A model generated the notes under the pieces. That model did not search any database and was not told where the DNA came from. It was given only the letters and a program-made list of their open reading frames with translations. Below are positions 1 through 7,298 of a DNA stretch of 7,298 nt, one piece after another (position 1 is the stretch's first letter; each line of letters begins with the position of its first letter). Origin of the DNA: Thermoplasmatota archaeon (GTDB lineage: Bacteria; Pseudomonadota; Gammaproteobacteria; Burkholderiales; Thiobacillaceae); contig JAMCVR010000020.1 of assembly GCA_023475455.1 (NCBI GenBank), positions 1-7,298 of the forward strand, read 5' to 3'. Position numbers and translations under genes: made by a program.

Positions 1-902
1 CGGGCGAGCGGCGCATGGGCAGACTCGGCGGCCTGATCCGCTTCATGCCATGGACAGCCTGGCTGACGCTCATCGGCGCCCTGGCGATAGCCGGGTTGCC
101 GCCGCTCAACGGCTTCGTTTCGGAATGGCTGTTGCTGCAGGCCTTCCTGCTCACGCCGGGGTTGACCCAGCCTTATCTCAACATGGTGATACCGGTGGCT
201 GCAGCGTCGGTGGCGCTGGCGGCGGCGCTGGCCGCGTATGTCATGGTGAAGTATTTCGGCGTGATCTTTCTCAGCCGGCCGCGCGACCCGGCGCTCGAGC
301 ATGCGCACGAGGCAAACTGGCCGGAACGCCTGGGCATGCTCTGGCTGGCCGCCGGCTGCGTGGCGCTGGGCCTGTTTCCCGCCCAGGTCATCGCCTGGAT
401 TGCACCGGTCGTGCGGCACCTCACGGGACAGGCACTGGCCAACGACGGCAACTGGCTGTTGCTCGCGCCGCTGGCCGCCGAGCGCGCCAGCTACGCGCCG
501 CTGATTTTCCTGGCGGTGGTGCTGGCGGTTTTGCTGTTTACCTTCATCTGGGTACGCCGCGTCTATCACGGCCGCGTGCGCCACGCCGATCCCTGGGATT
601 GCGGCTATCCCGAACAGAACGCCCGCACCCAGGATAGCGCCGAAGGCTTCGGGCAGCCGATTCGCCATATCTTCGTTTCCTTCATGCGGGTCGAACGGGA
701 AACGCCCGACCCCTTCGATCGCCACCCGCACTACCGCGGCGACAGCCGCGACAAGCTCTGGCTGCTCCTCTACAAGCCCATCGCCGACCTGGTCGGATGG
801 CTGTCGGCACAGGCCGGGCGCCTGCAACACGGCCGCATCCAGTGGTACCTGACCTACGGCTTCGTCACCCTGATCGTTCTGCTCGTCTTTGTATCGCGCT
901 GA
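1..902 (+). CDS. hyfB: HyfB-like antiporter-type membrane subunit, C-terminal part (5' end outside window)
   Basis: This is the C-terminal part of a large NuoL/MrpA-like membrane subunit of a hydrogenase-4/Ehr-type complex, which would carry protons or ions across the inner membrane. The frame is open to the left edge (first whole codon at base 3), so the ATG at 15 is an internal methionine and not the start. About 299 residues are present; E. coli HyfB has about 670. Numbered from that Met: a LGGLIRFMP stretch at 4-12, the family hallmark GLPPLNGFVSEW at 27-38 with the buried Glu37 of antiporter-like subunits, Lys79 in the next membrane helix, several hydrophobic helices up to about 180, then the HyfB-specific WDCGY motif at 194-198 followed by NAR and GFGQP. 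A final helix spans about 279-293. TGA lies at 900-902, four bases before hyfC. NuoL is the main alternative, but WDCGY and the gene order favour HyfB. Confidence -1.
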   Translation, partial: GERRMGRLGGLIRFMPWTAWLTLIGALAIAGLPPLNGFVSEWLLLQAFLLTPGLTQPYLNMVIPVAAASVALAAALAAYVMVKYFGVIFLSRPRDPALEHAHEANWPERLGMLWLAAGCVALGLFPAQVIAWIAPVVRHLTGQALANDGNWLLLAPLAAERASYAPLIFLAVVLAVLLFTFIWVRRVYHGRVRHADPWDCGYPEQNARTQDSAEGFGQPIRHIFVSFMRVERETPDPFDRHPHYRGDSRDKLWLLLYKPIADLVGWLSAQAGRLQHGRIQWYLTYGFVTLIVLLVFVSR

Positions 903-906
903 AGCC

Positions 907-1851
907 ATGATCACCGGAATCCTTCTGCAAATTGCCCAGACCCTGATCGCCATCCTGCTGGCACCGCTGCTGATGGGCTGGGTCAACCAGTGCCGTGCCT
1001 GGCTGCAGGGCCGCACCGCGCCGCCCCTCACCCAACCCTACCGCACGCTGCGCAAGCTGTTCCACAAGGACGCGGTGATCGCCAGCAACGCCAGCCCGCT
1101 GTTCCGGTTCGCGCCTTATTTGATCTTTTCCTGCATGGTGCTGGCGGCCGGCCTGGTGCCGACCATCGCCAACGATCTGCCGTTCTCGCCGGCAGCGGAT
1201 GTCATCGCCCTGGTGGGCATCCTTGCGCTGGCGCGGGTGTTCCTGGCGCTGGCCGCCATGGACATCGGCACGTCCTTCGGCACGCTCGGGGCGCGCAGGG
1301 AAATGCTGGTGTCCTTCCTGGCCGAGCCTGCGCTGCTCATGGTGTTTTTCACCGCCAGCCTGATCTCGCAGTCCACCGAACTGCCGCACATCGTCGAGAC
1401 CCTGGCACAAAAGGAGTTCGCCATCTACCCCAGCCTGGCATTCGCGGCAGTCGCATTCTGGATGATCTCGGTGGCAGAAAACGCCCGCATCCCGGTGGAC
1501 AACCCGACCACGCATCTGGAACTGACCATGATCCACGAAGCCATGGTCCTCGAGTATTCCGCACGGCATCTGGCGCTGATCGAGTGGGCGGTGGCCTTGA
1601 AACTATTCACCTATTCCGTGCTGGGCATCGCCCTGTTCCTGCCCTGGGGCATCGCACCCCGGGGCGATGTCGCGGCCCTGCCCCTGGCACTTGCCGCCAT
1701 GGTGGCCAAGCTGGCGGCGGGCGGTGCTGCGCTGTCGTTCATGGAAGCCATCTCCGCCAAGGTGCGCCTGTTCCGCGCGCCGGAATTTCTCGGCACCGCC
1801 TTCCTGCTGGCAGTGCTGGGCATGCTGACCCACTTCCTGCTGGAGGTCTGA
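907..1851 (+). CDS. hyfC: HyfC-like membrane anchor subunit (NuoH/HycD family)
   Basis: This NuoH-family integral membrane protein connects the membrane arm to the peripheral HyfG/HyfI module. It has 314 residues, close to E. coli HyfC. After the first helix comes the family loop GRTAPPLTQPYRTLRKLFHKD at about 35-55 (GR, QPYR and KL conserved). Several hydrophobic helices follow, then the acidic cytosolic loop at about 190-218 with AENARIPVDNP, HLEL, HEA and EYS. In NuoH the equivalent loop lies beside the quinone channel. I chose the ATG at 907, four bases after the hyfB stop. An in-frame TTG at 889 would overlap hyfB and add only six unconserved residues. The ribosome site is weak (GAAG at 901-904), which suggests coupling to hyfB. 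The stop is one base before hyfE. Nothing is truncated. Confidence -1.
   Translation: MITGILLQIAQTLIAILLAPLLMGWVNQCRAWLQGRTAPPLTQPYRTLRKLFHKDAVIASNASPLFRFAPYLIFSCMVLAAGLVPTIANDLPFSPAADVIALVGILALARVFLALAAMDIGTSFGTLGARREMLVSFLAEPALLMVFFTASLISQSTELPHIVETLAQKEFAIYPSLAFAAVAFWMISVAENARIPVDNPTTHLELTMIHEAMVLEYSARHLALIEWAVALKLFTYSVLGIALFLPWGIAPRGDVAALPLALAAMVAKLAAGGAALSFMEAISAKVRLFRAPEFLGTAFLLAVLGMLTHFLLEV
1842..1846 (+). promoter_or_regulatory. Ribosome binding site of hyfE
   Basis: A GGAGG sits inside the last codons of hyfC, six bases before the hyfE ATG at 1853. It fixes that start and fits translational coupling between the two genes. Confidence -1.
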
Positions 1852-1852
1852 C

Positions 1853-2515
1853 ATGGCGCTGAACTACCACCTGCAGATCGTCAACCTGCTCGCGGCGCTG
1901 CTGCTGCTGATCTCTTTCGCCATGCTCTCGCAACGCCGCGTCGCCGGCCTGGTGACGCTGTTCGCCTGGCAGGGCGCGGCCCTGGCTTTGTCCACGGCCA
2001 TCGTCGCCTGGTCCACCGGCCAGCACCACCTGTATTACTCGGCGGCCCTGACCATGGGGCTCAAGGTCATCGCCATGCCCTGGTACTTCTATCGACTGAT
2101 AAGAAAGCTGAACGTGAACCGGGTCGTGGAGCCGATGATCAACATCCCCACCACCATGCTGATCGGCATCGTTCTGGTGATCTTCGCCTTCAATCTGGCG
2201 CTGCCCATCTCGCAGATGTCGGGCACGGTAATGCGCTCGACCCTTGGCATCGCCATTGCATGTGTGCTGCTCGCCTTCCTCATGATGATCACGCGCACCA
2301 AGGCCATCCCCCAGGTGATCGGCTTTCTGGCCATGGAAAACGGCCTGTTCTTCGCCGCCACCAGCGCCACCTACGGCATGCCCCTGGTGGTGGAACTGGG
2401 GGTAGCCCTGGATGTGCTGGTCGGCGTCTTCGTGCTCGGCATCTTCATCTTCCAGATCCGCGAAACCTTCGATTCGCTGGATCTGAAACACATGGAAAAG
2501 CTCAAGGAAAAATAA
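1853..2515 (+). CDS. hyfE: HyfE-like membrane subunit (NuoK-related)
   Basis: This small hydrophobic subunit of the membrane arm belongs to the HyfE family, whose C-terminal half resembles NuoK. It has 220 residues, against about 216 in E. coli HyfE. Roughly six to seven membrane helices are visible. The conserved C-terminal part has GFLAMENGLFFA at about 157-168, with Glu162 in a membrane helix, and then PLVVELGVALDVLVG at about 177-191 with Glu181 and Asp187. Membrane-buried glutamates of this kind form the proton path in NuoK. The end, from about 203 (RETFDSLDLKHMEKLKEK), is charged and cytosolic. The ATG is one base after the hyfC stop and has a strong GGAGG. In E. coli hyfD lies between hyfC and hyfE; here it is absent. 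Confidence -1.
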   Translation: MALNYHLQIVNLLAALLLLISFAMLSQRRVAGLVTLFAWQGAALALSTAIVAWSTGQHHLYYSAALTMGLKVIAMPWYFYRLIRKLNVNRVVEPMINIPTTMLIGIVLVIFAFNLALPISQMSGTVMRSTLGIAIACVLLAFLMMITRTKAIPQVIGFLAMENGLFFAATSATYGMPLVVELGVALDVLVGVFVLGIFIFQIRETFDSLDLKHMEKLKEK

Positions 2516-2518
2516 GGC

Positions 2519-3970
2519 GTGGAAATTTACTGGCTACTCGGCATTCCGCTGTCAGGCGGCATTTTCATGGCGCTGTGGGGCTTCCGGCGCAATGCACCGG
2601 AGATCAACGCACTGTTCAGCCTGCTCACTCTGGCCGTGGCGGCGCTGCTGACCGCGCGCATCGTCGAGGAAGGGCCGATGACGGTGGGCAACGGCTGGTT
2701 CTTCATCGATTCCTTCAACGTCTTCCTGGTCACGCTGACCGCCTTCGTCGCCTTCACCACCGCGCTGTTTTCGCGTCCCTACATGCGCATCGAAGAAGAA
2801 CACGGCCGTCTGAGCGCCGCCCGCCTGCGGCTCTACCACAGCAGCTATCAGATTTTCATCGGCATGATGATCCTGGCGCTGACCACCAACAACATGGGCA
2901 TCCTGTGGGTGTCGATGGAAGGCGCAACGCTCGCCACCGTGCTGCTGGTCTCGCTGTACCGCACGCCGGCGTCGCTGGAAGCGGCCTGGAAGTACTTCAT
3001 CCTGTGCGGCGTCGGCATCGCACTGGCGCTGTTCGGCACGATCCTGCTCTACTTCGCTGCGGAAAAGGTGCTGGGGTCGGGCGGCACTGCGCTGCTGTGG
3101 ACGCAATTGAACGGGGTGAAGACACAACTGGAACCCACGGTGCTCCAGTTGGCTTTCGTCTTCCTGCTGGTCGGCTACGGGACGAAAGTGGGACTGGTTC
3201 CCCTGCACAGCTGGCTGCCGGACGCCCATGCCGAAGGCCCCACGCCGGTATCCGCCGTGCTCTCCGGCCTGCTGCTCAACGTCGCGCTCTATGCGGTGAT
3301 GCGCTCCAAAGTGCTGGTCGATGGCGCGCTCGGCAACGACATGGCCGGCAACCTGATGATGGGGTTCGGCCTCCTGTCGGTCGTAGTCGCCGCTTTCCTG
3401 ATCAATCGCCAGACCGACGTGAAACGCATGTTCGCCTATTCCTCCATCGAGCACATGGGCCTCATCACCTTCGCCTTCGGCATGGGCGGCGCCGTGGCGA
3501 GCTTCGCGGGGCTCCTGCACATGACCATGCATTCGCTCATCAAATCCGCCATCTTCTTCACCGTCGGACACGCCACGCAAAAGGCCGGCACGCAATTGAT
3601 GAGCGACATTCGCGGCCTGATCAAGACCAACCCCACCATCGGCTGGGGGCTGATGCTGGGCACCATTGCCATCCTCGGCGTGCCGCCGTTCGGCGTGTTC
3701 GCCAGCGAGTTCCTGATCATCACCACCGCCATGCACGAGCACCCCTGGGCGACGCCCTTCCTGCTCATTGCGCTGGGCGTGGCGTTCGCCTCCATCTTCG
3801 GCAAGGTGCAGCCGATGGTGTTCGGCGAGACCGGACTGCCGCGGCTGCCGCACATGCCCGCGCTCACCCCCGTCTTCGTCCACCTCGGCCTGGTGCTGAT
3901 GCTGGGTCTGTTCATCCCGCCTTATCTCGCGACCTGGTATCGCCAGGCCGCGCAATTGCTGGGAGGCTGA
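2519..3970 (+). CDS. hyfF: HyfF-like antiporter-type membrane subunit (NuoM/NuoN/MrpD-related)
   Basis: This is the second antiporter-like, ion-translocating subunit of the complex, with 483 residues and about 12-14 membrane helices. Residues matching the charged axis of NuoM-type subunits are visible: Glu134 in SMEGATL, Lys158 in AWKYF, Lys223 in GYGTKVGL followed by PLHSWLPDAHAEGPTPVSA (His230), the AYSSIEHMG loop at 306-314, Lys342 in HSLIKSAIFF, and Glu397 in PPFGVFASEF. All key charged positions are kept, so it should be competent for ion transfer. The start is GTG, three bases after the hyfE stop, with AAGGA at 2505-2508 as the likely ribosome site; the next Met (residue 17) would remove most of the first helix. 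The gene stops one base before hyfG. It is shorter than E. coli HyfF (about 526), with no sign of a deletion inside the core. Confidence -1.
   Translation: MEIYWLLGIPLSGGIFMALWGFRRNAPEINALFSLLTLAVAALLTARIVEEGPMTVGNGWFFIDSFNVFLVTLTAFVAFTTALFSRPYMRIEEEHGRLSAARLRLYHSSYQIFIGMMILALTTNNMGILWVSMEGATLATVLLVSLYRTPASLEAAWKYFILCGVGIALALFGTILLYFAAEKVLGSGGTALLWTQLNGVKTQLEPTVLQLAFVFLLVGYGTKVGLVPLHSWLPDAHAEGPTPVSAVLSGLLLNVALYAVMRSKVLVDGALGNDMAGNLMMGFGLLSVVVAAFLINRQTDVKRMFAYSSIEHMGLITFAFGMGGAVASFAGLLHMTMHSLIKSAIFFTVGHATQKAGTQLMSDIRGLIKTNPTIGWGLMLGTIAILGVPPFGVFASEFLIITTAMHEHPWATPFLLIALGVAFASIFGKVQPMVFGETGLPRLPHMPALTPVFVHLGLVLMLGLFIPPYLATWYRQAAQLLGG
3961..3966 (+). promoter_or_regulatory. Ribosome binding site of hyfG
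   Basis: A GGGAGG lies in the last codons of hyfF, five bases before the hyfG ATG at 3972. It supports this start and tight coupling of the membrane-arm gene to the large-subunit gene. Confidence -1.
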
Positions 3971-3971
3971 G

Positions 3972-5528
3972 ATGCCAAAGCACCTGGACGACATTGCTCT
4001 CACCCCGCAGACGGAGGGCGGCTCCGTCTGGCGTTACCGGCTCGAACCCGGGCGCCTGCCCGCGTTTGCCCGCGCCATCCAGGACGAAGGCGGCCAGTTG
4101 CTCGCCCTGTGGGGCTCGGACGACCGCCACCTGGGACGCAATTTCACCGTTCACGTCACCTTCCTGTCCAGCGTCGGCCTGATCTGGACGACCAGCGAAC
4201 TCGACGGCGAACAACCCGCCTATCCGGACCTCGCCCATATTTTCCCGCAGGCCGATCGCATGCAGCGCGCGGCCTTCGACCTGCTCGGGATTCGTGCTTT
4301 GGACGCAGTGGACGGCCGTGCATGGCTGCGCCACGCTGCCTGGACCGAAGATGAGTTCCCCCTGCGCAAGGATTTCCCGGCACACGCCGCCCGCCGTTCG
4401 CCACACCCGCAAGTCGTCCCCTATCCCTTCATCCGCGTCGAAGGCGAGGGCGTGCACGAGATTGCAGTCGGCCCTATCCACGCCGCCACCATCGAGCCGG
4501 GACACTTCCGTTTCTCCGTCATCGGCGATCGCATCCTCAGGCTGGAGGAGCGGCTGGGCTACACGCACAAGGGAACGGAAAAGCGCTTCGAGGGCCTGGA
4601 CCTGGCAACCGGCGCGAAACTTGCCGGCCGCGTCTCCGGCGATTCGCATACGGCATTCGCCTGGGCCTATTGCATGGCGGTGGAAACGGCCATCGCCTGC
4701 AGCGTGCCGGATCGCGCCACCTGGCTGCGTGCGCTGTTTCTTGAAATGGAGCGCGTGGCCAATCACCTGGGCGACCTCGGCTTTCTTGGCAACGACGTCG
4801 CGCTGACGTTCGGCTTCGTGCAGTTCTGGCGGCTGAAGGAAGACTGGATGCGCATGTCGGCCAGGCTGTTCGGGCATCGCTACCTGTTCGACATGATCCT
4901 TCCCGGCGGGGTCGCGACGGACATCGATGCGCGCGGCAAGGCCGAGCTGGATGCCCTGTGCGAGCGCATCGCGGGGGAGGTGCAGACCCTCAGGCACATT
5001 TACGACGAGCACACCGGCCTGCAGGATCGCTTCGCCAACACCGGCATCGTTGCACCGGACATGGCCGCGCGCCTGGGCCCCACCGGACTGGCCGGGCGCG
5101 CCAGCAGTCAGGCGTGGGATGCGCGCGTGCAGTTCCCGTGCGCACCGTATGACCGGCTCGACGTGAACATGGCGCTGCAGAAATCCGGCGATGTCCTGGC
5201 GCGCGCCGAGGTGCGCTTCACCGAGGTGTTCGAGTCGCTGCGGCTGATCCGCCAGTTGCTCGAACAGCTTCCCGCCGGCGCGCTTCGTGCATCCTGCACG
5301 CAAGCGGCGGGAGTTTGCGAGGGCCTGGGCTGGGTGGAAGGATGGCGTGGCCCGGTGATCGTGGCGGTACGCATCGGCGCCGATGGCAGGCTCGACCGCG
5401 TGCATCCGCACGATCCTTCATGGCAGAACTGGCCGCTGGTGGAGGTGGGCGTGCTCGGCAACATCGTTCCCGATTTCCCGCTCATCAACAAATCGTTCAA
5501 CCTCTCCTACAGCGGACCGGATTTGTAA
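3972..5528 (+). CDS. hyfG: HyfG-like large subunit, NuoC-NuoD fusion lacking all four Ni-Fe cysteines (Ehr type)
   Basis: This peripheral large subunit has 518 residues. Residues 20-137 form a NuoC-like 30-kDa domain, with YPDLAHIFPQADRMQRAAFDLLGI at 84-107 and PLRKDFP at 130-136. From about 163 comes the NuoD/HycE-like domain, with GPIHAATIEPGHFRF at 167-181, GYTHKGTEK at 196-204, WDARVQFPCAPYDRLDV at 382-398 and GDVLARAEVR at 406-415. In true [NiFe] hydrogenases an ERxCGxC motif follows the first region. Here it reads GRVSGDSH, so both cysteines are serine (222, 225) and the Glu is Gly219. The C-terminal DPCxxC is also missing: the protein ends VPDFPLINKSFNLSYSGPDL, with no extension for a maturation protease. 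I read the reference motifs from memory of the family. It therefore should not bind Ni-Fe, and the reaction is unknown. The ends meet hyfF and hyfI with one-base gaps. Confidence -1.
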   Translation: MPKHLDDIALTPQTEGGSVWRYRLEPGRLPAFARAIQDEGGQLLALWGSDDRHLGRNFTVHVTFLSSVGLIWTTSELDGEQPAYPDLAHIFPQADRMQRAAFDLLGIRALDAVDGRAWLRHAAWTEDEFPLRKDFPAHAARRSPHPQVVPYPFIRVEGEGVHEIAVGPIHAATIEPGHFRFSVIGDRILRLEERLGYTHKGTEKRFEGLDLATGAKLAGRVSGDSHTAFAWAYCMAVETAIACSVPDRATWLRALFLEMERVANHLGDLGFLGNDVALTFGFVQFWRLKEDWMRMSARLFGHRYLFDMILPGGVATDIDARGKAELDALCERIAGEVQTLRHIYDEHTGLQDRFANTGIVAPDMAARLGPTGLAGRASSQAWDARVQFPCAPYDRLDVNMALQKSGDVLARAEVRFTEVFESLRLIRQLLEQLPAGALRASCTQAAGVCEGLGWVEGWRGPVIVAVRIGADGRLDRVHPHDPSWQNWPLVEVGVLGNIVPDFPLINKSFNLSYSGPDL

Positions 5529-5529
5529 G

Positions 5530-6063
5530 ATGGCGACGTTCCTGATCCTCCAGCAGATTCTCAAGACTGGCATCGTCTCCGAGCCGGCGCCCGAGGCGGA
5601 TCCCGCGCTGCGCACGCGCGAGCAGGCGCTGCACGCGGACATCCTCAAGGTCTTCGGCCAGGCCGTGGCGATCCGCCACGTCGACGCCGGCTCCTGCAAC
5701 GGCTGCGAGCTGGAAATCCATGCCCTCAACGGGCCGCACTACAACATCGAAGGCATGGGCGTGAAATTCGTGGCCAGTCCCCGCCATGCCGACCTGCTGC
5801 TGGTCACCGGGCCGGTGACGCGAAATATGGAAATCGCGCTGAAACGCGCTTTCGAGGCCGTCCCGGAACCCAAGTGGGTGGTGGCCATGGGCGACTGCGG
5901 ATGCACTGGCGGGATGTTCGGAGAAAATTACGCCACGTGCGGAAAAGTCTCCAGCGTCATCCCGGTCGATGTCGAGGTGCCGGGCTGCCCGCCCACCCCG
6001 GTCGCCCTGTTGCAGGGCATCCTCGCCGCCGTCAGCGGGGGCAGGCAAGATGCGGTGGGCTAG
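5530..6063 (+). CDS. hyfI: HyfI-like small subunit, NuoB family, one [4Fe-4S] cluster
   Basis: This 177-residue electron-transfer subunit belongs to the NuoB/HycG/HyfI family and pairs with HyfG. All four likely cluster ligands are present: Cys56 and Cys59 in SCNGCE, Cys123 in MGDCGCTGG and Cys153 in PGCPPTP. Two further cysteines, 125 and 137, are not expected ligands. The N-terminus (ILQQILKTGIVSE) is typical of the family. I chose the ATG at 5530, one base after the hyfG stop. An in-frame ATG at 5383 would sit far inside hyfG and encode an unrelated Ser/Thr-rich stretch. The protein ends soon after the last cysteine and is shorter than E. coli HyfI (about 250). The TAG at 6061-6063 is shared in a CTAG with the opposing gene. 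With no hyfH next to it, this is the only Fe-S cluster encoded in the visible operon. Confidence -1.
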   Translation: MATFLILQQILKTGIVSEPAPEADPALRTREQALHADILKVFGQAVAIRHVDAGSCNGCELEIHALNGPHYNIEGMGVKFVASPRHADLLLVTGPVTRNMEIALKRAFEAVPEPKWVVAMGDCGCTGGMFGENYATCGKVSSVIPVDVEVPGCPPTPVALLQGILAAVSGGRQDAVG

Positions 6064-6305
6064 GACGTGGCCTTGGGTTTCCTGCCGGGGCTGGCGGCCG
6101 GGATATATCCCGACACCCGAGCCAACATGCCTTCGATTTTCCTGCCGTTGATGAATCGCGTCGAGTGGCACGCGATGATGTCGCCCCGCTTCGACATCTC
6201 GGACAGGTGAACGCGCACGTCTTCCAGCGGAATGCGTGTCGCCGCGGCGATCTCGGAGTCGAGCTGCTCGCCCCGGGTTTTCAGGTAGGCGTGGATTTTC
6301 TGCAT
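6060..6305 (-). CDS. Small winged-helix DNA-binding-like protein with basic GRKPK tail
   Basis: This 81-residue protein is probably a small transcription regulator. A short helix (1-12) is followed by a helix-turn-helix-like pair, LDSEIAAATRI at 15-25 and PLEDVRVHLSEMSKRG at 26-41. A beta-wing region follows at about 42-66 (DIIACHSTRF, GRKIEGMLARVSGY), then a tail with PGRKPK at 73-78 that looks like an AT-hook. No metal-site pattern is clear: Cys46 and His47 are isolated. Similar short winged-helix proteins are common in betaproteobacteria, from memory; the target is unknown. The ATG at 6303-6305 is well supported by AAGGAG eight bases upstream. The 5' end overlaps the upstream transferase gene by 25 bases, so the two are likely one transcript. 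Its TAG (6062-6060) overlaps the hyfI stop. Any link to the hyf operon is unproven. Confidence -1.
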   Translation of the reverse strand: MQKIHAYLKTRGEQLDSEIAAATRIPLEDVRVHLSEMSKRGDIIACHSTRFINGRKIEGMLARVSGYIPAASPGRKPKATS

Positions 6306-7168
6306 GTCTGTGACTCCTTGGTTTTGATGTTTGGCAAGGCTTTAGCCGAGGCAGTCTTCGCCCAGCGCAATTCGGCGCCTTCGCGCAGGCTGTCCAGAAT
6401 AGCCGAGAAGTCGAGCGGGAATTGCTCGGCGAGCTTCCCCGCCCGTGCTTCCAGCTGTTCCCAATCAAGGGAACAGCTGGCTTCGACAAAAGCAAAAGCA
6501 ATATGGTTATCGCCCCCGGGAACCGTTCCCACCTGGATGCGCCCTGCGAAGGCGTCGTTCATCAAGGCCAGGTGCCTGGACCAGTATTTTCTTGGCCCGG
6601 CGAAGTTGGCGACGAGCAGGCCGCCCGGCCTGAGCCGGTTGCGCGCCGCCCGGTAGAAGCCGCGATCGAGAAAAGTCGGGGCGATGCCCTTGTCGTCGAA
6701 GCCATCCAGCAGCAGAACGTCGGTATCGCCTTCCGCGGCGGGCAGATACTCGGCCGCATCGGCCTGGATGATCGCCAGGCGTTCGTCGCCGGGGACGCCG
6801 AACGCCTCACGCAGCGCGATGACATCGGGATTCACCTCGACGACGGTCAGACGTGCGCGAGGCAGATGACGGTGGCAGAACTTGGCCAGCGAACCGCCCC
6901 CCAGCCCGACCATCAACACATGATCCGGTTTGGGCACGAACAGCAGAAAGGCCATCATCTTGCGGGTGTAGGCAATATCGAGGGCGAAGGGATCGTCGAT
7001 GCGCATGGAACTCTGGATGAAATCCAGACTGAACAACAGTTGCCGCGTCTCGCCGTCGTCGATGATGAAAGGCCGGGCGTAGCGGCCGGCCAGTATCTGC
7101 TCATAGAGCGCCACAGGGTCGCTCTGCGCCGGTTCGAGCACGCGCACCTTGACCGGCTCGCCCGACAC
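6281..7168 (-). CDS. Spermidine-synthase-like SAM-dependent transferase
   Basis: This 295-residue protein has the class I methyltransferase fold of the spermidine-synthase superfamily. The N-terminal beta region includes FIIDDGETRQLLFSLDFIQSSM at 34-55, then a YTRKMM helix at 67-72. Motif I is VLMVGLGGGSLAKF at 84-97, the ribose-binding acidic strand is LTVVEVNPDVI at 107-117, the adenine-side acidic residue is in QADAAEYL at 135-142, and LLLDGFDDKGIAP lies at 152-164. Spermidine synthases usually have a D-x-x-D-P-x-G gatekeeping pattern; here the proline is missing (GFDDKG), so polyamine synthesis is doubtful and the substrate is unknown. The start is a GTG without a clear ribosome site, three bases from a 127-base repeat at the window end. 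The true N-terminus could differ. The last ~20 residues look unconserved and overlap the next gene by 25 bases. Confidence -1.
   Translation of the reverse strand: MSGEPVKVRVLEPAQSDPVALYEQILAGRYARPFIIDDGETRQLLFSLDFIQSSMRIDDPFALDIAYTRKMMAFLLFVPKPDHVLMVGLGGGSLAKFCHRHLPRARLTVVEVNPDVIALREAFGVPGDERLAIIQADAAEYLPAAEGDTDVLLLDGFDDKGIAPTFLDRGFYRAARNRLRPGGLLVANFAGPRKYWSRHLALMNDAFAGRIQVGTVPGGDNHIAFAFVEASCSLDWEQLEARAGKLAEQFPLDFSAILDSLREGAELRWAKTASAKALPNIKTKESQTCRKSTPT
6314..6319 (-). promoter_or_regulatory. Ribosome binding site of the small winged-helix gene
   Basis: On the minus strand AAGGAG lies eight bases before the ATG at 6305. It is embedded in the 3' end of the transferase gene and decides the start of the small gene. 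Confidence -1.
6451..6480. repeat. Perfect 12-bp inverted repeat, 6-base loop, inside the transferase gene
   Basis: CCAGCTGTTCCC (6451-6462) and GGGAACAGCTGG (6469-6480) are exact reverse complements around AATCAA. The minus strand codes here for SCSLDWEQLE, around residues 231-240 of the transferase. Neither strand has a T-run after the stem, so it is not a standard intrinsic terminator. It may be a chance product of coding, an RNA hairpin or a protein site. Confidence -1.
6904..7030. repeat. 127-bp direct repeat, copy 1 (internal, in transferase gene)
   Basis: These 127 bases are identical to 7172-7298. They code on the minus strand for about residues 47-88 of the transferase, which includes the start of the SAM-binding motif, and fit that gene without a break, so this copy is the native one. 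The flanking bases differ at once (A at 6903 against T at 7171). Confidence -1.
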
Positions 7169-7171
7169 TTT

Positions 7172-7298
7172 GCCCGACCATCAACACATGATCCGGTTTG
7201 GGCACGAACAGCAGAAAGGCCATCATCTTGCGGGTGTAGGCAATATCGAGGGCGAAGGGATCGTCGATGCGCATGGAACTCTGGATGAAATCCAGACT
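7172..7298. repeat. 127-bp direct repeat, copy 2 at the window end (probable assembly overlap)
   Basis: This is an exact copy of 6904-7030, displaced by 268 bases and running to the last base of the window. 268 is not a multiple of 3, so read literally on the minus strand it is an out-of-frame fragment of the transferase that runs into other codons and stops at 7101-7103. A length of exactly 127 equals the largest k-mer size of the SPAdes assemblers, which points to a self-loop in an assembly graph. A real 268-bp tandem duplication is the alternative. No independent gene is seen in 7169-7298. Confidence -1.

Follow-up and report, generated by a model that had tools for sequence, protein, structure and literature searches.

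An Ehr-type large subunit without Ni-Fe ligands, HyfG, and its possible tie to inorganic-carbon supply in a Thiobacillaceae-like lineage

The HyfG protein encoded in the window (the whole stretch of DNA that was analysed, 7,298 nucleotides) has lost the four cysteine ligands of a Ni-Fe site, and the complex to which it belongs is almost certainly not a hydrogenase. It is probably an ion-translocating complex of the energy-converting hydrogenase-related (Ehr) kind. A service to inorganic-carbon supply in the lineage of the window is proposed tentatively, and the chain as a whole, an ion-translocating Ehr complex recruited to inorganic-carbon supply in a Thiobacillaceae-like lineage, a shade more tentatively still. 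A membrane complex of this kind would be built from six subunits, HyfB-C-E-F-G-I, with HyfG as the large one, and the membrane arm of the complex may move protons or exchange them for a cation. The ion movement would be coupled to binding or to a redox change at the old metal pocket together with the single cluster. Once recruited in the Thiobacillaceae-like lineage, the complex would make or use an ion gradient that, in concert with an anion transporter of the SulP kind and a gamma-carbonic anhydrase (gamma-CA), may supply more cytoplasmic bicarbonate to a nearby RuBisCO. The following features were assigned in the window.

3-902, + strand: hyfB, 3' part, NuoL-like antiporter-like membrane subunit, truncated by the window start
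907-1851, + strand: hyfC, NuoH-like membrane anchor (Pfam NADHdh, E 2.6e-33)
1853-2515, + strand: hyfE, membrane subunit (NCBIfam hydrogenase 4 membrane subunit, E 1.6e-24, under the cut-off)
2519-3970, + strand: hyfF, antiporter-like membrane subunit (NCBIfam hydrogenase 4 subunit F, 861 bits, over the cut-off)
3972-5528, + strand: hyfG, Ehr-type large subunit of 518 aa, NuoC-like and NuoD-like domains fused, Ni-Fe site lost
4494-4496, + strand: Glu175 of HyfG, equivalent of HycE Glu193, the proton-transfer carboxylate of the beta1-beta2 loop (Glu in 128/128 rows)
4635-4646, + strand: Ser222-Gly-Asp-Ser225 of HyfG, replacing Cys-Gly-Ile-Cys (Asp224 in 125/128 rows)
5499-5516, + strand: Asn510-Gly515 of HyfG, replacing Asp-Pro-Cys-Tyr-Ser-Cys (from the alignment; Asn510 in 123/128 rows)
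5530-6063, + strand: hyfI, small subunit with one [4Fe-4S] ligand set, Cys56/Cys59/Cys123/Cys153 (Pfam Oxidored_q6; alignment to HycG, HyfI and NuoB)

The genes from hyfB (3' part) through hyfC, E, F and G to hyfI form a tight run on the + strand (3-6063), followed by two genes on the - strand. HyfB matched the NCBIfam model of hydrogenase 4 subunit B with an E value of 3.2e-112, under the curated cut-off. HyfG was divided by Pfam into a NuoC-like and a NuoD-like part, and its best solved sequence relative was E. coli HycE. Names given to database copies include Ni,Fe-hydrogenase III, formate hydrogenlyase, hydrogenase 4 and NADH-quinone oxidoreductase; the warning in an earlier note on this DNA that annotation as hydrogenase 4 or formate hydrogenlyase misleads is borne out, such names being carried by copies whose ligands are gone. 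The range given there for the lost site, 4620-5528, starts at residue 217 of HyfG, and Glu175 of the same pocket lies upstream of it, at 4494-4496.

The first of the - strand genes (6060-6305) encodes an 81-aa protein with no Pfam or NCBIfam match; it overlaps the end of hyfI by 4 bases, and relatives were matched in 11 of the 80 nearest-kin loci. The second (6281-7168) is a spermidine-synthase-like gene (PF01564). Its relatives occur near the Ehr operon in 16/80 nearest-kin, 2/47 class-wide and 5/8 plasmid loci, with varying position and strand (20 bp before hyfB in Paraburkholderia), and the gene is a second recurrent neighbour of the operon besides SulP/gamma-CA. An exact direct repeat of 127 bases at the end of the window (6904-7030 and 7172-7298) is probably an assembly artefact at the contig end.

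HyfG was aligned in 128 rows (the window and 127 loci) with E. coli HycE, E. coli HyfG and NuoCD as references. The HycE ligands C241, C244, C531 and C534 correspond to S222, S225, S512 and G515 of the window protein. Column 222 contains S in 121 rows, C in 3, A in 3 and V in 1; column 225 contains S in 102, T in 17, A in 5, G in 3 and C in 1; column 512 contains S in 115, A in 8, T in 2, N in 1 and a gap in 2; and column 515 contains G in 124, A in 2 and a gap in 2. Cysteine was absent from all four columns in 124 of the 128 rows, and each of the other 4 rows has exactly one. Among the best 120 of 8000 scored proteins the first motif reads RVSGDSH in 89, RVSGDTH in 22 and a close variant in 9, and the C-terminus reads PLINKSFNLSYSGxDL in 118, the other two differing by one change each.

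The replacement of the first cysteine pair by Ser222 and Ser225, as claimed in the earlier note, was thus confirmed by the alignment to HycE and by the columns. For the second pair the claimed loss stands (S512, G515) and the location does not, having been placed ~10 residues too early: VPDFPLINKS (499-508) aligns with VSDAPLIIGS of HycE, and the true replacement is N510-L-S-Y-S-G515. Cysteines 234, 243, 330, 390, 442 and 449 were considered as alternative ligands and none of them falls in a ligand column, so the ligand loss withstands its sequence test. The absence of a cleavable C-terminal extension was also borne out, L518, the final residue of HyfG, being aligned with HycE R537 at the end of the solved HycE chain. 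R537 is presumably the point of C-terminal cleavage during HycE maturation.

Columns 222 and 512 change together: all 7 rows with Cys, Ala or Val at 222 carry Ala at 512, which occurs in 8 rows in total (raw row counts, in which L145 and L146 are alike at all printed columns and may be one lineage). This co-variation suggests that the two former ligand positions are still in mutual contact. Neither the 222/512 co-variation nor the exchange to Asn510 was found reported in searches of open PubMed Central. A second Ehr-type large subunit, with 32-33% identity to the window HyfG, was encoded at L158, L159 and L160, in genomes that also hold the first type; its ligand regions read RVSGVGS and IAG or VAG, then CDR or ADR.

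The roles of pocket residues of HycE, including Glu193, are described in portions of PMC9474812, where the canopy residue Asp529 is termed strictly conserved. HycE Glu193 corresponds to Glu175 (128/128 rows), Arg478 to Arg459 (127/128), His284 to His265 (128/128) and Glu437 to Glu418 (127/128); Ser283 is matched by Asn264 (127/128), and Asp529 is changed to Asn510 (123/128). E. coli HycE of formate hydrogenlyase (7z0s) therefore has the fold, Glu175, Arg459, His265 and Glu418 in common with HyfG, which differs from it in the absence of the cysteine ligands and of the C-terminal extension, in Asn510 and in having no HyfA or HyfH relative nearby. Asp224, Asn506, Lys507 and Asn510 are among the near-invariant residues that differ from HycE, E. 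coli HyfG and NuoD.

The gene is under purifying selection and is not decaying, since the fold, the proximal-cluster cysteines and most of the proton-channel residues are kept and dN/dS of hyfG is ~0.2. The model of HyfG gave a TM of 0.93 against HycE in a fold comparison, with NuoD folds ranking next. The earlier description of a well-kept fold without decay agrees with these values and with the conservation, by which a pseudogene was ruled out.

HyfI has four cluster cysteines with CxxC spacing as in HycG, from alignment to HycG, HyfI and NuoB. Of the channel positions (Glu, Lys and His) checked in HyfF and HyfB, the majority are kept and some are changed, to judge from sequence. HyfF retains E134, K158, K223, H312 and E397, with Tyr in place of NuoM E108 and Asn in place of K265. 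The full-length HyfB relative at L001, the closest relative of the window, retains E149, K229, K307, H350, H354 and K358, with Ala for NuoL D178 and Glu for K399. In HyfC four of the eight checked positions are kept (E140, D198, E205 and E216, matching NuoH E157, D213, E220 and E228), and NuoH E36, E216, E218 and E241 are replaced by V26, T201, H203 and V229.

With the ligand columns lost and complex-I/Mrp-like membrane subunits (hyfB, C, E, F) in the same cluster, the Ehr-type reading made earlier of HyfG was supported. Ehr complexes are described, in the parts of PMC6349859, PMC10284858 and PMC4378227 drawn on here, as group-4-hydrogenase relatives with complex I/Mrp-like membrane subunits, without Ni-Fe ligands and of unknown function; both the kind and its ligand loss were already known from these sources and from part of PMC7304191. 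The window complex resembles them in the absence of the ligands and in its membrane subunits, and differs in having six subunits, one cluster and, in one lineage, a carbon-uptake neighbourhood. The FDH-Ehr proposed in a part of PMC6349859 has, in contrast, a formate dehydrogenase partner.

HyfB was located with at least 2.5 kb of upstream sequence at 95 of the 127 loci, comprising 60 nearest kin and 35 class-wide loci. Nearest kin (L001-L080) were the best 80 among the matches listed, picked by similarity to the window, and class-wide loci were L114-L160. Neighbour counts were based on tblastn, since the GC-frame filter used to pick genes where GC content is high loses some genes and misorients others. 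A SulP threshold of 80 bits was applied for the locus counts and of 250 bits for the tree, and both gave 33 linked loci before L139. The 96 labelled tree rows are the 95 loci plus L139, which has no hyfB on its stretch and was added by hand. The HyfG tree was built quickly and contains several long branches; L133 and L139 are joined by one of these.

Of the 60 nearest-kin loci with enough upstream sequence (2.5 kb or more), 33 have a SulP and/or gamma-CA gene no more than 3.5 kb from hyfB and in its orientation (tblastn, raw count), and the gap between neighbour and hyfB was <150 bp at 18 of the 33 (approximate, from tblastn ends). Three SulP subfamilies, identified by PF00916 and STAS, alternate in this place, and the gamma-CA is of the Cam/CcmM type. 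SulP matches numbered 1-7 per genome in 18 genomes of 1.7-3.9 Mb. Mapped on the quick HyfG tree, gain or loss of such a neighbour requires at least 6 changes and its identity at least 22, so that the gene was exchanged within a constant neighbour class. At L139, distant on the tree, a SulP gene stands directly before hyfF-hyfG (all three within 176-5490), and hyfB, C and E were not found on the 12-kb stretch.

Further carbon genes were matched near the operon. A RuBisCO large subunit was detected at 9/127 loci, including L001, and CbbO at 16/127. L017 carries on one strand SulP, gamma-CA, hyfBCEFGI, a NuoM-like gene and dabA. Genomes G002, G004 and G404 carry dabA on the contig of hyfG at a distance of ~12 kb, and G004 has another copy at ~18 kb. 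PF10070 (DabA) was matched in 4/18 kin genomes, close behind the operon only at L017; the six-gene operon of the window contains no DabA. In Acidithiobacillus ferrooxidans a six-gene 'group 4 hydrogenase' (AFE2149-54) and a form II RuBisCO (AFE2155) are given in sections of PMC2621215 and PMC6458275, and the cluster adjoins the RuBisCO, judged by published locus tags alone.

Proteins of ~350 aa weakly related to CsoSCA, under the curated cut-off, were encoded at L135 (7743-8792, - strand) and L056 (12039-13094, - strand), the former ~95 bp after hyfI on the same strand. Family 31 was rejected as a beta-carbonic anhydrase, having no Pfam match and a weak match to carboxysome shell carbonic anhydrase instead. 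A small ribbon-helix-helix gene (RHH_9, PF19839) was present near the Ehr operon in 14/80 nearest-kin, 6/47 class-wide and 4/8 plasmid loci and was noted at L162, L163, L164 and L169; it is a candidate regulator of the operon.

Related clusters of Acidithiobacillus have been described. The motifs SGD[TS][TS][AV][GA]Y and NLSYSGHDL were printed for hydrogenase-like clusters in 2018 (in a section of PMC6002666), and these clusters share with the window a count of six genes and the cores SGDS and NLSYSGxDL (SGDSHTAF and NLSYSGPDL in the window). They were named there the fdh-mhy cluster, a probable novel complex, and the sections of PMC6002666 concerned contain no carbon-uptake link. In A. caldus hyfBCEFG stands beside a beta-carbonic anhydrase, and a part in pH and CO2 homeostasis was suggested in a passage of PMC3826726; the subunit set and the adjoining carbonic anhydrase are similar, and the complex was presumed in that passage to be an H2-evolving hydrogenase, which is where the proposals differ. 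Searches of open PubMed Central found no tie between SulP, gamma-CA or DAB and Ehr or Hyf complexes that lack the Ni-Fe ligands. The window HyfG is accordingly of a known Ehr kind, and its recurrent SulP/gamma-CA/dabA setting is apparently unreported there.

A general Ehr redox pump would account for many of the same data. A soluble donor would reduce the single [4Fe-4S] cluster and pass electrons to an acceptor in the old pocket, the arm would pump ions, and the carbon neighbours would be there because autotrophy genes cluster in one lineage. This reading is a serious contender, short of being probable. It is favoured by the hydrogenase spacing of the cluster cysteines and by a wide bacterial spread, a HyfG match at E 1e-60 or better being present in 44/369 class-wide and 32/61 family genomes and a tblastn match at 1e-5 in 245 plasmid records, of which 91 cover at least 80% of the query and some are perhaps of other kinds. 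RuBisCO is not enriched in genomes with Ehr (23/44 vs 159/325, p 0.75, 369 genomes), whereas in the positive control it is enriched with DabA (56/83 vs 126/286, p 0.0002, 369 genomes). None of the 35 class-wide loci that had a located hyfB and sufficient upstream sequence showed the SulP/gamma-CA link, which is also wholly absent from an 18-row clade mostly titled Gallionella or kin. No SulP or carbonic anhydrase was detected within 9.5 kb of the plasmid copies in 8 examined, including those of Variovorax and Burkholderia, which are usually heterotrophic genera. Against a general redox pump stand the single cluster, with no tblastn match >60 bits to HyfA, HyfH, NuoF or NuoG in the 127 loci, the constancy of neighbour class through at least 22 changes of identity, and the SulP gene at the distant split-operon locus L139.

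The family draw shows a tendency to mutual exclusion of Ehr and DabA (61 genomes: 8 with both, 24 with Ehr only, 15 with DabA only, 14 with neither; p 0.038), and of the 8 genomes holding both, 4 carry them on separate contigs. No exclusion was seen in the class draw (12/44 vs 71/325, p 0.44). A replacement between Ehr and DabA is thus weakened, as is a general carbon role for Ehr by the lack of RuBisCO enrichment at class level. From these co-occurrence results the carbon tie is a trait of one lineage and not of all Ehr complexes.

A stronger form of the carbon reading is improbable. In it the Ehr complex would itself act as an energy-coupled machine for inorganic carbon in chemolithoautotrophs, alongside DAB and NDH-1MS. 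Its pocket (Ser222, Asp224, Ser225, Lys507, Asn510, Arg459, Glu175) would bind CO2 or bicarbonate or relay a proton, and the antiporter-like arm, partnered by a gamma-CA and a SulP, would power bicarbonate accumulation or vectorial CO2 hydration. DAB and cyanobacterial NDH-1MS are complex-I-like membrane proteins serving carbon supply (PMC13144422, in part) and are candidate work-alikes, dabA being close behind the operon at L017; they differ from the window complex in that the six-gene operon lacks DabA and that its carbon role is putative.

A partner role in sulfur metabolism is similarly unlikely. SulP would carry sulfate, which sulfur oxidisers also need to transport, and Ehr would supply or use an ion gradient in these bacteria. 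The titles of several nearest kin name Thiobacillus or Sulfuricella, and the best match of two of the three SulP subfamilies is a chloroplast sulfate transporter or prestin; for the third it is 6ki1 (BicA). This reading leaves the gamma-CA, RuBisCO and dabA neighbours unexplained. The proximal cluster of MBS has three Cys ligands (PMC7684303, in part) and HyfI keeps four; an MBS-type sulfur reductase was ruled out on this difference and because none of the four large-subunit cysteines is left.

A quinone-reducing relative of complex I, with quinone bound in the pocket as in NuoD, is very unlikely. Asp275 and His199 align with the NuoD Asp and His (His199 is also His in HycE), and NuoD folds come second to HycE. 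The quinone-binding Tyr of complex I is however absent, its column being Gly223 in 125/128 rows, as is the proton-donating His, whose column is Ile174 in 125/128 rows, and a canonical quinone site was rejected on these changes. Unlike complex I, the operon has no NuoF or NuoG match around it in the 127 loci, and 10 of the 11 searched genomes have a second match of ~30% identity that is probably their own NuoD. By the column counts at hydrogenase and quinone residues, the pocket is strongly conserved but matches the canonical form of neither a hydrogenase nor a quinone site.

A cryptic hydrogenase, or one with a different metal, is hardly credible in spite of the kept hydrogenase-pocket residues Glu175 and Arg459, given the 124 cysteine-free rows, the missing C-terminal extension (with which loss a [NiFe] hydrogenase was ruled out) and the reported inability of A. 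thiooxidans, a carrier of such genes, to grow on H2 (cited in an excerpt of PMC6002666).

The value of the HyfG observation lies chiefly in the role, open to test, that its surroundings suggest. Ehr complexes are widespread and have no known reaction, and the tie of the Ehr complex to SulP, gamma-CA, RuBisCO and dabA in one lineage offers such a role. Ehr genes should not be counted towards H2 metabolism. Should the tie prove functional, a class of complex I relatives would be added to the carbon-concentrating systems of autotrophs that do not photosynthesise.
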